Source: a virus
DNA: 36,365 nt
Virus record (IMG/VR): IMGVR_UViG_3300021379_000791
Location: 1 to 36,365 of that record
Direction: 5' to 3' (one strand)
How positions within the stretch are numbered: the first letter of the stretch is position 1; every line of letters begins with the position of its first letter. A model generated the notes under the pieces. The model saw only the letters and a program-made list of their open reading frames with translations, searched no databases and had not been told where the DNA came from. The translations under genes were made by a program, and so were the position numbers. Shown here piece by piece: positions 7,666 through 20,306 of the stretch.

Positions 7666-8484
7666 ATGCGAGTTTTATTTTTGTTATCTGGCGAGATTAG
7701 AGGTTCTCGCACGAAAGCTAATATAGAATGGATTAAAGAGTGTTTACCAGATATTGATGTAAAGTGCATTACATGGAACAGAGGTATCGAGTATTCATTC
7801 GTTGATAAGTATTATGATGAGCCAGTTGCAACTTATTGGCCTGAAAATTCAAAGCAGCACGTCCTACATAGAATTGAAGGACTGAGGCAGTTGAAGAAAT
7901 CGGGTGCAGATTGGCCGCCGTTAAACAACCATGATTTTGAATTGGTGACACAGAGATTTAGTCAAAACGCCAATAATAGAAATCGATGGAAAAAACGGCA
8001 TTATCAATTGTTGCAGCATGCATTAGGTGTCGATGATTTTGGTGATGGATATGATATCATAGTAAGAGGACGATTCGATTATCCTTATAGAAACTATGAT
8101 CATATCAAACTGGCTATCGAATATTTAAGTATGAGTAAGACTGATATTGTAGAGGTGAGAAACTCGGTCGATGTTGAAGGTCATGAATTTATTGAACCAG
8201 AGCTAAATTGGTTATCATGGGATTTTACGATCATACATCGAAAAGAAGCATACGATACAGATTTTATTTGGAATGAGCATAAGAACAAAAGGTTATTAGG
8301 TGCAGAGAGTGGTTGGAATCAAGCATTTAAATTAGACCAACCTGAACCGCCAAAGCTGATGAGTATTAACGGTCATCGTTGTAAGGAAGTTGGTATGCAT
8401 AGCATACTCGATTATTTCCAAAGAATGGATGACTTGACTGAACAGGAACAGACTTTCTATGAAAGACAAACAGAACAAGTCTAA
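7666..8484 (+). CDS. putative glycosyltransferase / WavE-like protein
   Basis: The 272-residue protein begins MRVLFLLSGEIRGSRTK, typical of the first strand and loop of surface-polysaccharide transferases of the WavE/capsule type. Residues about 127-140 (YDIIVRGRFDYPYR) match their R-x-D-x-P-like sugar-nucleotide region. Later IEPELNWLSWDF and ESGWNQAF follow. It overlaps the next gene by 26 bases. It is probably an accessory glycan gene carried among late genes. The family match is weak and the substrate unknown. Confidence 0.45.
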   Translation: MRVLFLLSGEIRGSRTKANIEWIKECLPDIDVKCITWNRGIEYSFVDKYYDEPVATYWPENSKQHVLHRIEGLRQLKKSGADWPPLNNHDFELVTQRFSQNANNRNRWKKRHYQLLQHALGVDDFGDGYDIIVRGRFDYPYRNYDHIKLAIEYLSMSKTDIVEVRNSVDVEGHEFIEPELNWLSWDFTIIHRKEAYDTDFIWNEHKNKRLLGAESGWNQAFKLDQPEPPKLMSINGHRCKEVGMHSILDYFQRMDDLTEQEQTFYERQTEQV

Positions 8485-11400
8485 AGATCCAGATGGACCT
8501 TTGCCAAAATGGGGTGAGCCGAAAGGTGTCGCTAAGTATATGGCGTTTACTCCCGGTCAGAAAAAAGTAAAAGAAGCTTGCTGGGATGGCTATAAAAAGG
8601 TAGGTATGAAAAAGAAAGGCAAGAAAATGGTACCGGATTGTGTACCAGAAATGAAGACGATTAAAGTTGGAGAAGATGCTATCGGCTCCAACAATTGTCA
8701 TTATGCTCTTGTTCAGTCGAGAAAGGTAATCGCTACCGGTACCAAAGAAGAGATGATGTCACAATGCCAAGAAAAAGGTGGTCGTGTTTGGGTATCTACA
8801 AAAGCAGTTGGCGATATTGTCGAAGCCAAGTATAGTGTAGATGTAAGCGGTTTACCTCGTTTTTACATGGATGCAGACTCACCAGCTGAGATCAAGAAGA
8901 AGCTGCGAGTATTGCTTCGTAAAGTTTCAGACATCGACAGTGTAGATCGTGTAAACGACGCTAAGATTAAAGCAGATCTACGTCAAAGAATTAAAGGTGC
9001 TGATACCAATAAGAGATTGGTTGACGAAGAACTCGGTTGCTTTCCAGCAGGTAGCTTAGTATTTGTACAGAGCGACATCAATTCTGAAGCAGCATGGACA
9101 AATATTCCAGAAGAAGAGCCTGAATTTGATTACGGCGAAGATACCTATGTTGAATTCAAAGCAATCGAAGAAGTTGTAGTTGGTGATGTGATTCTAGGAT
9201 ACGGTGGCTGGAACACAGTTGAAGAAGTTCATCACTATCCACAAGAATCTCGTAACATGGTTACATATCAGTTTGCAGGTAACCTCGTTGACTGGACTGG
9301 ATCGTTGAAGTGTACAGATTATCATCCGATTATGTTCAATCGACAACGTATATGGGAAACAAGAAAAGATTTTAATCATGGTGATCATACGTATGCATGG
9401 TGTTCAGCAAATCCAGCCTTAAGTAACACTAAGCATCCCGGTCTCGATGTGACAGAGCCATTGATTGGTGATTATGCTGTTACATATACTGCATATCCAC
9501 CTGATATTGATGCTCCATGGAATTACACATCGTTGACTGGTATGACTACAACAACCGAAAACATACCTGTATACAACCTGACTGTGTCAGGTGACCATAC
9601 GTATATAGTAAATAGTATAGTCGTACACAATAAAAATTTAGATGAGAAGCTAGGTAACAGTTCCACCGCTGGTGACTGGATAAAAGATTTTAGAAAATCA
9701 GATGCTCCTCAGTTTAAAGGTAAATCAAAAGAGAAAAAGACTAAGATGGCCATTGCTGCCTATCTTAATCATCGCAGACAAAAGGGACTAGAAGAGATGG
9801 CCTATCGTAAACCAACTGCCGCTGAGATTGCGGCTGATCGTAAAAAAGATAAGAAGGCACCAGAAGGTGATCGCGCTAGCCGAATAAAGAAAAAAGTGTA
9901 TGGTAATGCGATGGGCGGTTTGAAGAAAGAATCAACAGCAGAATATGGTAAGTCTATGGATCGTATTCAGGCCAAGAAAACTTCTGATCAATTATCACCG
10001 GAACATAAGAAAAAGCTATCTGCATTGCATGCTCTTATGAAGAAGCAAAGAAAGACAGGTAACTACAAGATGGAAGATACACAGCTTGAAGAATCAAAGA
10101 AAGCAGTAGCTGCATTGAATATGTTGGCGAAGAAAGATAGCCGAGTTATTCCGGATCAAATCGCCATGTTGAATAGAATTGTCATGGATGGCAAGCATAA
10201 GGATGCACACAAGTTTGTTCGAGGAATGGATAAAAAGATTTCATCAACTGTTGCCGGCATCCTACGCAAGCATGGTATAAAAGAGGAAAAAGATACGACA
10301 CCAGAAGAGAAGGCTAAGAAGCGTCAGGCATTCCTTGATCGTCTTCGTGGCAAGCCGCCCGTTAGAGAAGAAGATGAACATCATTACGTAAAGGTACATG
10401 GCAAATCATACCGCGATCATCTCTATGTAAAAACCAAAGCAGCCAGCAAGCGTGACGCCGTTGCTAAAATTAAAAAAGAATATCCAAACAATAAAGTCAC
10501 TTACCATAAAGAGGAACTAGATATGAACGAAGGTTCAATAAAAGGTTCTGATACATCTAGCGTAAAGGGTAAGCTCAAGAAAGCTTTCCGTAAAGGCGAA
10601 GCTGATCAGAAAACATTTAACACGGCGGGCGGTATGCCAAGACGTAAAGAGCCAAAGAATCCAAAGACTGGAGAGCAAAAGGCTTATAAAGCAGGTCGTC
10701 AGGCTGGATATTCAACCAATAAAACTGGTGCTGCGCGATCAAAGCCACAAGATTCTCTGAATTACAAATCAAATAAGATGTTCCCAAAGCGTCCTACTGG
10801 TTTTAGTGCAGATCCTAAGTTGCCAAAAGATAGGAAGCCACAGAGTGAAGGTTTTGCAGATAATAAGCCTAAGCCTCGATTCTCTGATCGCATGTCAACT
10901 GCGCCAGCACCGGGCCGTAAGGTATCACCTGCTCAGGCGCGAATGAAGAAAACCAATGCAGCTCCTGGCCGTCACTCTTATGCACGTGAAGAGATGGAAA
11001 CAGAGTCATTTAAGTCGTATACAATTACGCACAAGCCAACAGGCAAAAAGTATAAAGTAAATGCTATTCACTCAAATGATGCGAAGAAAAAAGCTGCTGC
11101 AATGCACGGTGGTTCAACTGCATCACGCTACTCAGGCACTAACCATGATGACTTCCATCATGAGAGTGTACAAAACGAAGGCATGGTGAATGCAGTTGCA
11201 GCTGCAAAGCGTATGGCTGGTAACATGACTGGTGCATCTAAGAAGATCGACAAGATGAAGCCGGCTGCTAAGAGTGGCAAGACTGGTCGATTCTCTGATA
11301 ATCCACGTATTGCTAAGAAGCTTCAGAAGTATAACGAAGATGTTCAATCTTGGTCAAAGTTTGTTGAGAGCAACTGCTTATCAGCTAGCTATGGCGGCAA

Positions 11401-11518
11401 GAAGAAGATGAAAGAAGGCGAACTATCAGCTGCGCAAAAGAAGCACATGGATCATGACAAAGATGGAGACATCGATGCTAAAGATCTGGCCAATTTGCGT
11501 AACAAAAAGAAATCATAA
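8459..11518 (+). CDS. large basic modular protein with internal Hint (intein-like) domain and EF-hand-like C terminus
   Basis: The 1019-residue product has three parts. Residues 1-193 are basic and contain the common phage module CWDGYKKVGMKKKG and VPDCVPE. Residues 194-391 are a Hint domain, described separately. Residues 392-1019 are a string of Lys-rich modules (for example SDAPQFKGKSKEKKTKMAIA, KVHGKSYRDHLYVKTK and SYTITHKPTGKKYKVNA) separated by acidic linkers. The C terminus has an EF-hand or dockerin-like loop with Asp at 998, 1000, 1002, 1004, 1006 and 1009, preceded by SAAQKKHM, so it may bind calcium. Late position and basic charge suggest a structural or injected protein. Function is unknown. 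Confidence 0.8.
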   Translation: MKDKQNKSKDPDGPLPKWGEPKGVAKYMAFTPGQKKVKEACWDGYKKVGMKKKGKKMVPDCVPEMKTIKVGEDAIGSNNCHYALVQSRKVIATGTKEEMMSQCQEKGGRVWVSTKAVGDIVEAKYSVDVSGLPRFYMDADSPAEIKKKLRVLLRKVSDIDSVDRVNDAKIKADLRQRIKGADTNKRLVDEELGCFPAGSLVFVQSDINSEAAWTNIPEEEPEFDYGEDTYVEFKAIEEVVVGDVILGYGGWNTVEEVHHYPQESRNMVTYQFAGNLVDWTGSLKCTDYHPIMFNRQRIWETRKDFNHGDHTYAWCSANPALSNTKHPGLDVTEPLIGDYAVTYTAYPPDIDAPWNYTSLTGMTTTTENIPVYNLTVSGDHTYIVNSIVVHNKNLDEKLGNSSTAGDWIKDFRKSDAPQFKGKSKEKKTKMAIAAYLNHRRQKGLEEMAYRKPTAAEIAADRKKDKKAPEGDRASRIKKKVYGNAMGGLKKESTAEYGKSMDRIQAKKTSDQLSPEHKKKLSALHALMKKQRKTGNYKMEDTQLEESKKAVAALNMLAKKDSRVIPDQIAMLNRIVMDGKHKDAHKFVRGMDKKISSTVAGILRKHGIKEEKDTTPEEKAKKRQAFLDRLRGKPPVREEDEHHYVKVHGKSYRDHLYVKTKAASKRDAVAKIKKEYPNNKVTYHKEELDMNEGSIKGSDTSSVKGKLKKAFRKGEADQKTFNTAGGMPRRKEPKNPKTGEQKAYKAGRQAGYSTNKTGAARSKPQDSLNYKSNKMFPKRPTGFSADPKLPKDRKPQSEGFADNKPKPRFSDRMSTAPAPGRKVSPAQARMKKTNAAPGRHSYAREEMETESFKSYTITHKPTGKKYKVNAIHSNDAKKKAAAMHGGSTASRYSGTNHDDFHHESVQNEGMVNAVAAAKRMAGNMTGASKKIDKMKPAAKSGKTGRFSDNPRIAKKLQKYNEDVQSWSKFVESNCLSASYGGKKKMKEGELSAAQKKHMDHDKDGDIDAKDLANLRNKKKS
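9038..9631 (+). other. Hint domain (intein or bacterial-intein-like) inside the 8459-11518 gene
   Basis: The encoded residues 194-391 carry Hint landmarks: an N-terminal Cys194 in CFPAGSLVF, AIEEVVVGDVILG (block A end), TDYHP at 286-290 (block B with its His), VYNLTVSGDHTYIVN (block F) and SIVVHN ending at His390-Asn391 (block G). At 198 residues it is a mini-intein, with no LAGLIDADG or HNH endonuclease visible. The residue after Asn391 is Lys392, not Cys, Ser or Thr. Classic splicing needs such a +1 nucleophile. This is the pattern of bacterial intein-like (BIL) domains, which may cleave or splice without it. Confidence 0.88.
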
Positions 11519-19262: not shown

Positions 19263-20306
19263 GTGTCGGTATTCGATACAAGAAAGATAGATGCTACAAC
19301 ACAACCGGCTTTCTTCGGTGATTCGGTTAATATTGCTCGTTACGACAAGCAACGTTATAGCGTATTCGAGAAGATGACAGATAAGCAACTCGGTTTCTTT
19401 TGGAGACCAGAAGAAGTTGATATCTCACGTGATAGCAAAGACTTCAAGGCTCTGTCTACTCAAGAACAACATATCTTTACGAGCAACCTAAAGCGGCAGA
19501 TACTATTAGATTCAGTACAAGGTCGCGGTCCAGTTGAGGTATTTCTACCCTTATGTTCATTGCCTGAGTTAGAGAACTGGCTAATCACTTGGTCATTCTT
19601 CGAGACAATTCACTCACGATCTTACACACATATCATTCGCAATGTGTACAATGATCCAAGCAAAGTATTCGACGAGATGTTGGACATCGAAGAAATAGTA
19701 GACTGTGCGAAGAGTATCTCGAAGTATTATGATGCATTGGCAGAGAATCCTACTAAGCGAAATCTATGGTTGTGTTTAAATGCAGTGAATGCATTGGAAG
19801 GTATTCGATTCTATGTATCATTCGCATGTTCATGGGCATTCGCTGAACTAAAGAAGATGGAAGGCAACGCCAAGATCATTAAGTTTATTGCACGCGATGA
19901 GAATGTGCACATGGCATCAACACAGCAGCTCATCAAGCTGTTACCAAAAGAAGACGAAGAGTATGCCAAGCTAAAAGATGAGTGTGCTGACGAAGTCCGT
20001 GAAATCTTCAGAGATGTTATTGAGCAAGAAAAATCATGGGCACGATATCTTTTTAAAGATGCATCGATGATTGGTTTGAATGATGAGCTACTATGTAATT
20101 ATGTAGACTGGTTAGGCAATAAGCGTATGTATGCCATCGGTCTATCAAACGAGCGCGGTGGTTCTGATCCATTACCATGGACACAAAAGTGGATCTCAGG
20201 TGCTGAAGTACAGGTTGCACCACAGGAAACTGAAATCACATCATACATCATTGGAGGTATTAAGAAAGATGTTACCGATGACACATTCAAAGACTTTGAG
20301 CTTTGA
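19263..20306 (+). CDS. nrdB: ribonucleoside-diphosphate reductase, small subunit (class Ia)
   Basis: The 347-residue di-iron/tyrosyl-radical subunit starts at GTG directly after thyX, with GGAGG (19254-19258) as ribosome site. All ligands can be placed against E. coli NrdB: Asp83 (LLDSVQG), Glu114 and His117 (FETIHSRSYTH), radical Tyr121, Glu179 (ALEGIRFY), Glu213 and His216 (ARDENVH). The C-terminal end (DDTFKDFEL) is the NrdA-docking peptide. It appears complete and active. Confidence 0.97.
   Translation: MSVFDTRKIDATTQPAFFGDSVNIARYDKQRYSVFEKMTDKQLGFFWRPEEVDISRDSKDFKALSTQEQHIFTSNLKRQILLDSVQGRGPVEVFLPLCSLPELENWLITWSFFETIHSRSYTHIIRNVYNDPSKVFDEMLDIEEIVDCAKSISKYYDALAENPTKRNLWLCLNAVNALEGIRFYVSFACSWAFAELKKMEGNAKIIKFIARDENVHMASTQQLIKLLPKEDEEYAKLKDECADEVREIFRDVIEQEKSWARYLFKDASMIGLNDELLCNYVDWLGNKRMYAIGLSNERGGSDPLPWTQKWISGAEVQVAPQETEITSYIIGGIKKDVTDDTFKDFEL

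Follow-up and report, generated by a model that had tools for sequence, protein, structure and literature searches.

We found that the open reading frame at 8459..11518 (+ strand), which encodes a protein of 1019 residues, carries a complete Hint domain. The window analysed here is the whole stretch of 36,365 nucleotides of DNA from an uncultured bacterial virus. The domain is probably an endonuclease-free Hint module of the BIL type, inserted into a protein of modular build, encoded by a T4-like relative of the Kyanoviridae, and belonging to a class that carries a Lys, with a thioester that would be resolved either by hydrolysis or by the amine of Lys392. Modules of this class appear to be widespread and phage-centred, with the Lys placed right after His-Asn and, in some lineages, at +2.

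The start of the host ORF agrees with that of its relative L082. Its N-terminal flank, residues 1–193 (8459..9037, +), is the predicted N-product of ~193 aa and is 78% identical to L082 and 64% identical to L083–L085. The Hint domain follows at 9038..9631 (+), which corresponds exactly to Cys194–Asn391 (198 aa) and is supported by its residues, profile, TIGR01443, alignment, AlphaFold model, and PDB match. The translated ORF placed Cys194, TDYHP (residues 286–290), His390-Asn391, and Lys392 where a preliminary description of this DNA had put them, and the chain length of 1019 aa and the domain boundaries given there also held. The Cys194 codon (9038..9040, +) specifies the block A nucleophile (Cys1); this Cys never varies in alignment A1, although it served in part to select the members. 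Block B, TDYHP (9314..9328, +), supplies the Thr and His of the TxxH motif (T103 and H106, at least 90% conserved), and blocks F and G (VYNLTVSGDHTYIVNSIVVHN; 9569..9631, +), recognized from sequence and alignment, have Asn in place of the block F Asp. The next codon (9632..9634, +) encodes Lys392, the +1 residue, which comparison with relatives assigns to the module. The C-terminal flank, residues 392–1019 (9632..11515, +), is the predicted C-product of ~628 aa, and its first 309 residues are 75% identical to L082. The same description had held that a homing endonuclease is absent, and indeed the 198-aa domain has no room for one and no endonuclease family was reported. At the C terminus of the host protein (11404–11518), we also observed a HMDHDKDGDIDAKDL stretch with a weak dockerin-type match, which is common to relatives.

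The identity of the domain was examined by sequence and by predicted fold. NCBIfam TIGR01443 (intein C-terminal region) scored 24.5 bits against a cut-off of 15.6, and Pfam PF14890 gave a weak, sub-threshold match (E 0.0047 with the full-length protein and 9.5e-5 with the domain alone). A profile of Lys+1 Hints built from 66 clusters with the window excluded matched the window Hint at E 7.4e-20 with the search space fixed at 20000; it did not report the Hint sequence when reversed. Most of this score came from domain residue 40 onward; the block A region contributed -2.9 bits, because an insert separates block A from the rest. Alignment of 51 Hints shows that the Cys, the Thr and His of block B, the Tyr, and the terminal His-Asn are all retained in the window. 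The AlphaFold (AF2) model of the domain is a Hint fold with a mean pLDDT of 82.1 and a pTM of 0.79, and its inserted loops have ten-residue means of pLDDT ~59–73; the domain has 198 aa where the class has ~140 aa, and the surplus sits in these low-confidence loops. The best PDB match of the model was Tetrahymena BIL2 (Foldseek 2.8e-8; Z 19.6, 2.0 A over 144 residues), and the other matches ranged from Z 15.7 to 17.3, with CthBIL4 at 15.7 and gp41-1 and Hedgehog at ~17. A sequence profile search of the PDB returned the same families, with BIL2 first (1.8e-27) and CthBIL4 second (1.4e-22). The window Hint is divergent, its nearest identity being ~36–37% over the best-aligned part. A single-sequence Hint search of viral contigs for close relatives gave 10 pattern-matching stretches, none of which was confirmed, and the same query against phages gave weak matches at three places (E 0.2). 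When single Hints were queried against isolated phages, either nothing matched or the matches were mostly Vibrio phage proteins with a helicase annotation.

The virus record of 36,365 bases contains genes for ribonucleotide reductase, gp32, a T4-type RNase H, PhoH, a primase-like protein, and an alternative oxidase, and its gene order is partly shared with Phage C48C1, which is filed under Kyanoviridae. This gene content and shared order indicate a T4-like virus near the Kyanoviridae. The alternative oxidase gene (635–1213; PF01786, E 2.6e-63) is of a type that cyanophages are known to carry. Immediately preceding the host gene lies an ORF of 272 residues (7666–8484) that is absent from L082 and L083–L085 and has no family match beyond a weak one; we considered it as a free-standing homing endonuclease and rejected it, as no family of such a kind matched.

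We compared the host protein with relatives that lack the Hint domain. L082 and L083–L085 encode the protein without it in a conserved gene order, and since L083–L085 are near-identical, the comparison rests on two distinct Hint-less relatives. L082 reads ...KRNVDEKLDPTKHDAGDYIKDF... at the insertion site, and the window reads ...KRLVDEELG-[Hint]-KNLDEKLGNSSTAGDWIKDF.... The (D/N)EKLG-like motif is the start of a common module, seen in 29 distinct sequences among those listed; it occurs once in the Hint-less relatives, as DEKLD or DEKLG, and flanks the Hint on both sides in the window, as VDEELG on the N side (9020..9037, +) and LDEKLG on the C side (9638..9655, +). By a hand count from the codons, the two flank copies agree at 11 of 18 bases and so do not stem from a recent duplication. 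Exact splicing would leave ~7 residues beyond L082 (also counted by hand), with a doubled DE(E/K)LG, so that by comparison with the two distinct Hint-less relatives exact removal would not restore the uninterrupted protein. The window's relatives have no counterpart of Lys392. To look for a possible source of the junction between Hint and flank, we scanned for HNK with a (D/N)E(K/E)L module after it and obtained 0 stretches, and the N-flank had no match among isolated phages. The host protein belongs to no named family and its C-part differs between relatives; host proteins of these modules are modular and poorly conserved. The distribution is patchy, and both kinds of syntenic relative lack the domain, which has therefore been gained or lost. 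These comparisons identify the domain as an insertion in the host protein.

The residue at +1 was surveyed with a block A motif scan that left +1 unspecified, in which viral contigs and cellular genomes were searched, the first downstream His-Asn end was taken, and hits were clustered at 65% identity; both scans are samples, not censuses. For the viral scan, 109 of the 120 rows listed were assigned, giving 112 hits, 103 with a His-Asn end and 91 of them short; the genome scan gave, among the matches listed, 116 hits at 113 loci, 78 with His-Asn and 75 short. The 9 viral and 38 genome hits without a His-Asn end, some of which look like cut contigs and some like other Hint types, were dropped before the +1 residues were counted. 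Among the matches listed, Lys was at +1 in 18 of 28 clusters of viral short Hints, 26 of the 28 had no Cys, Ser, or Thr there, and 23 had Lys at +1 or +2. The corresponding counts for cellular short Hints, again among the matches listed, were 32, 62, and 49 of 67 clusters. Adding the 11 likeliest missing rows to the viral tally gave Lys+1 in 19 of 29 clusters. Lys was at +3 in none of 25 viral and none of 63 cellular cases among the matches listed; thus, the preference for Lys is limited to +1 and +2. The 12 long, endonuclease-sized viral Hints among these matches had Cys (7), Ser (4), or Arg (1) at +1. Lys is the commonest +1 residue among endonuclease-less phage Hints in the matches listed. 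An earlier tally by C-terminal motif, covering 116 hits at 115 loci among the matches listed, gave C 87, K 9, S 7, G 6, R 2, V 2, T 1, A 1, and F 1; judging from the flanks, we read it as dominated by terminase-type inteins.

We asked whether AT-rich DNA explains the Lys. In contigs above 50% G+C (17 sequences, from a set that left out 17 of the 113 genome loci), Lys+1 fell to 29% and Lys at +1 or +2 stayed at 71%. The block F position was also considered. Asn stands there in 53 of 66 Lys clusters and in 15 of 19 C/S/T mini-Hint clusters, and we dropped the idea that losing the block F Asp marks the Lys class, because most mini-Hints with a nucleophile are without the Asp too. In the Lys-fixed scan, proteins ended exactly in HNK in 9 of 28 closed clusters. 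A separate Hint lineage has D, Q, or E at +1 and Lys at +2, followed by glycines (L442, L448, L451, L458, L487, L495, L503, and others, from candidate phyla bacteria).

The nearest relatives were sought with patterns that left out +1, drawn from an alignment of the window with five similar Hints; these five seeds came from a Lys-fixed scan, a mild bias. Among the 40 loci found, 39 had Lys at +1 and one had Cys, and Lys stood there in 15 of 16 clusters. In 9 of the 16, one a short fragment, this Lys was the last residue of the protein. Carriers included tail assembly proteins with a terminal Hint (phrog_32, E 1.5e-37 and 1.3e-35), a family that we take to be the lambda gpI-like tail assembly protein, and large tail proteins in which the module lies before a DPLAQ(T/S)F domain. 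C-terminal Hints ending exactly HNK before the stop were seen in L136:2282-3457 and L149:78-1244 (both phrog_32) and in L126, L224, and their relatives. Two or more tandem Hints were observed in one virus protein in L116–L119, L125, L127, and others, in L113, and in L120, L150, L157, L195, and L214; in L113, a single Lys lies between one Hint end and the next Cys (HN-K-CFVAGT). The DPLAQ(T/S)F domain itself matched 789 and 1034 isolated-phage records in two queries. All 10 Hint-bearing contigs with this domain read HN-K, five of them with HNK followed directly by DP, whereas in 12 isolates a Lys just before the motif was found in none and a His-Asn Hint end within 60 residues before it in none. 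The Lys therefore comes with the module, and by this comparison it travels with the module, with the window in agreement. Our searches of isolated phages turned up almost no members of the Lys+1 class.

Pairwise dN/dS was 0.066–0.248 where defined in three groups of relatives, as distinct from the window copy. These values represent purifying selection, by which measure function is maintained in the relatives of the window Hint, and they fit the earlier suggestion that the domain is retained for processing. In a tree of 126 rows, partly chosen with Lys fixed and with 17 genome loci left out, the window grouped with 32 rows (27 with Lys) at 93/84 support on a long end branch. The Lys label required 19 changes on this tree, compared with 41.9 when shuffled, and formed no single clade.

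We then set the window Hint beside known systems. With class 1 mini-inteins (gp41-1, DnaB), it shares the fold (Z 16.6–17.3), blocks A, B, F (with Asn), and G, Cys1, the block B TxxH, and the His-Asn end; however, these inteins need Cys, Ser, or Thr at +1 and leave the host sequence unbroken, and the window does neither. Like a type A BIL, e.g. Clostridium thermocellum BIL4 (PDB 2lwy; Z 15.7), it has a Hint fold, a C-terminal His-Asn, no usual +1 nucleophile, and no endonuclease, but its +1 residue is a module-borne Lys, and its class is carried by tail proteins of phages and by other viral proteins. Tetrahymena BUBL1 BIL2 (PDB 6y75, 6tmm) is the best match by both profile and fold; unlike the window, it belongs to a eukaryotic polyubiquitin locus. 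Pretoxin HINT (PF07591) matched 39 of the 51 members of alignment A1 at E 0.001 but not the window member; Pfam returned no toxin family in the host protein at E 0.1, and the C-terminal toxin of the Pretoxin HINT arrangement was not found. The Hedgehog autoprocessing domain (PDB 1at0), which uses N-terminal thioester chemistry, resembles the model at Z 17.2 but differs from the window, which has a His-Asn end. By profile homology and Lys at +1, the window falls within the Lys+1 Hint class. The BIL-like arrangement proposed in the preliminary description was thus upheld by the intact His-Asn, the unusual +1 residue, the lack of an endonuclease, and BIL domains as the closest solved folds by profile. 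The Lys is no oddity of one protein: across a large, phage-centred class it stands at +1 more often than any other residue.

These features suggest that autoprocessing of the host protein is likely. Cys194 would take over the acyl group of Gly193 as a thioester by an N-S acyl shift, with Thr286 and His289 assisting, and cyclisation of Asn391 would release the C side of the module. The N-terminal thioester would then be resolved by one of two routes of the same chemistry: hydrolysis, giving proteins of 193 and 628 residues, or attack by the Lys392 amine, rejoining both parts and leaving a Lys scar. For this host protein, we hold a cut chain to be slightly the more probable outcome, ahead of ligation through Lys. 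The earlier expectation of separate proteins from one chain survives as one of two possible outcomes, resealing through Lys being the other. In the available part of one report, type A BILs end in His-Asn, cleave, and can splice through attack of the freed amine on the thioester with no +1 nucleophile (PMC4031507); according to the available part of a second review, ligation is beyond them (PMC7765530).

A self-cutting Hint that yields proteins of 193 and 628 aa, with the Hint attached or not and with Lys+1 merely permitting Asn cyclisation, is a candidate that we rate somewhat short of probable. The available parts of the same two sources describe mostly cleavage products for type A BILs (PMC4031507; PMC7765530), the host proteins are modular and of low conservation, and with DE(E/K)LG on both Hint sides, each cleavage product would retain its own copy. 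However, cleavage by itself leaves unexplained why Lys, as opposed to any non-nucleophile, is enriched at +1/+2 and absent at +3, and why proteins end exactly at HNK, where a cut would free one amino acid only. In a second candidate mechanism, the Cys1 thioester would be attacked by the alpha or epsilon amine of the module Lys, and the flanks would be joined again via this Lys, possibly as an isopeptide. We regard this as a real but tentative possibility. The Lys is position-specific and belongs to the module rather than to the host protein, some carriers are tail proteins whose parts would presumably need joining, and the authors of the BIL2 work, on the nearest solved fold, report an isopeptide between the C terminus and a Lys epsilon amine in the available part of their paper (PMC8616854). 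In that part, however, the acceptor Lys of BIL2 is described in the following, downstream ubiquitin-like domain, and the BIL2 +1 residue lay outside the alignment compared; furthermore, Lys is at +2 in part of the class, so that the side-chain geometry is not fixed, and the tree calls for repeated gain or loss of the Lys label (19 changes). A broader proposal, which we consider doubtful, is that the phage and prokaryotic Hint class brings along its own acceptor, the +1 or +2 Lys, and that splicing proceeds through aminolysis of the Cys1 thioester, giving a Lys scar or an isopeptide branch. Such a module-borne acceptor would need no Cys, Ser, or Thr in the host, so the module could sit in glycine-rich linkers, before DPLAQTF of tail proteins, between tandem Hints, or at a protein end.

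Two further readings are less probable. The domain could be a now inert mini-intein from which first the endonuclease and later the +1 nucleophile disappeared, as the patchy presence, the weak Pfam score, and the change of block F Asp to Asn might suggest. Yet every catalytic residue is kept, Lys+1 is common to 39 of 40 nearest relatives, these relatives are under purifying selection, and the block F Asn is usual across the whole class, which makes this reading unlikely. More improbable still, an external nucleophile might take over the thioester, so that the N-part becomes linked to a different molecule as in Hedgehog, with Lys+1 as a structural or leaving residue. Hedgehog domains match the model at Z 17.2 and many relatives stop right after HNK, but 628 residues lie downstream of the Hint in the window protein, and His-Asn, which Hedgehog domains are not known to have, is conserved. 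Against the preferred reading of a Lys-carrying BIL-type module stand the divergence of the window Hint, with its long branch and its score of -2.9 bits in the block A region, and the failure of exact splicing to restore the Hint-less protein.

We found no description of a Lys+1 Hint class in phages in the accessible literature, a scope outside which most subscription papers lie, the original BIL papers included, and the available parts of three Hint and intein papers (PMC7824862, PMC3556154, and PMC3482391) make no mention of it. The class is large and little-described, and Lys as its rule points to a testable alternative chemistry. Should Lys prove to be the acceptor, intein-like ligation would here proceed with neither a thiol nor a hydroxyl group as the nucleophile at the junction; the module would provide the nucleophile, and such ligation would be common among viral proteins. 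It would give a new view of how BIL domains work and spread, with possible ligation tools. Even if the Lys is just tolerated, the class would be a device in wide use for the maturation of tail proteins and other proteins of viruses.
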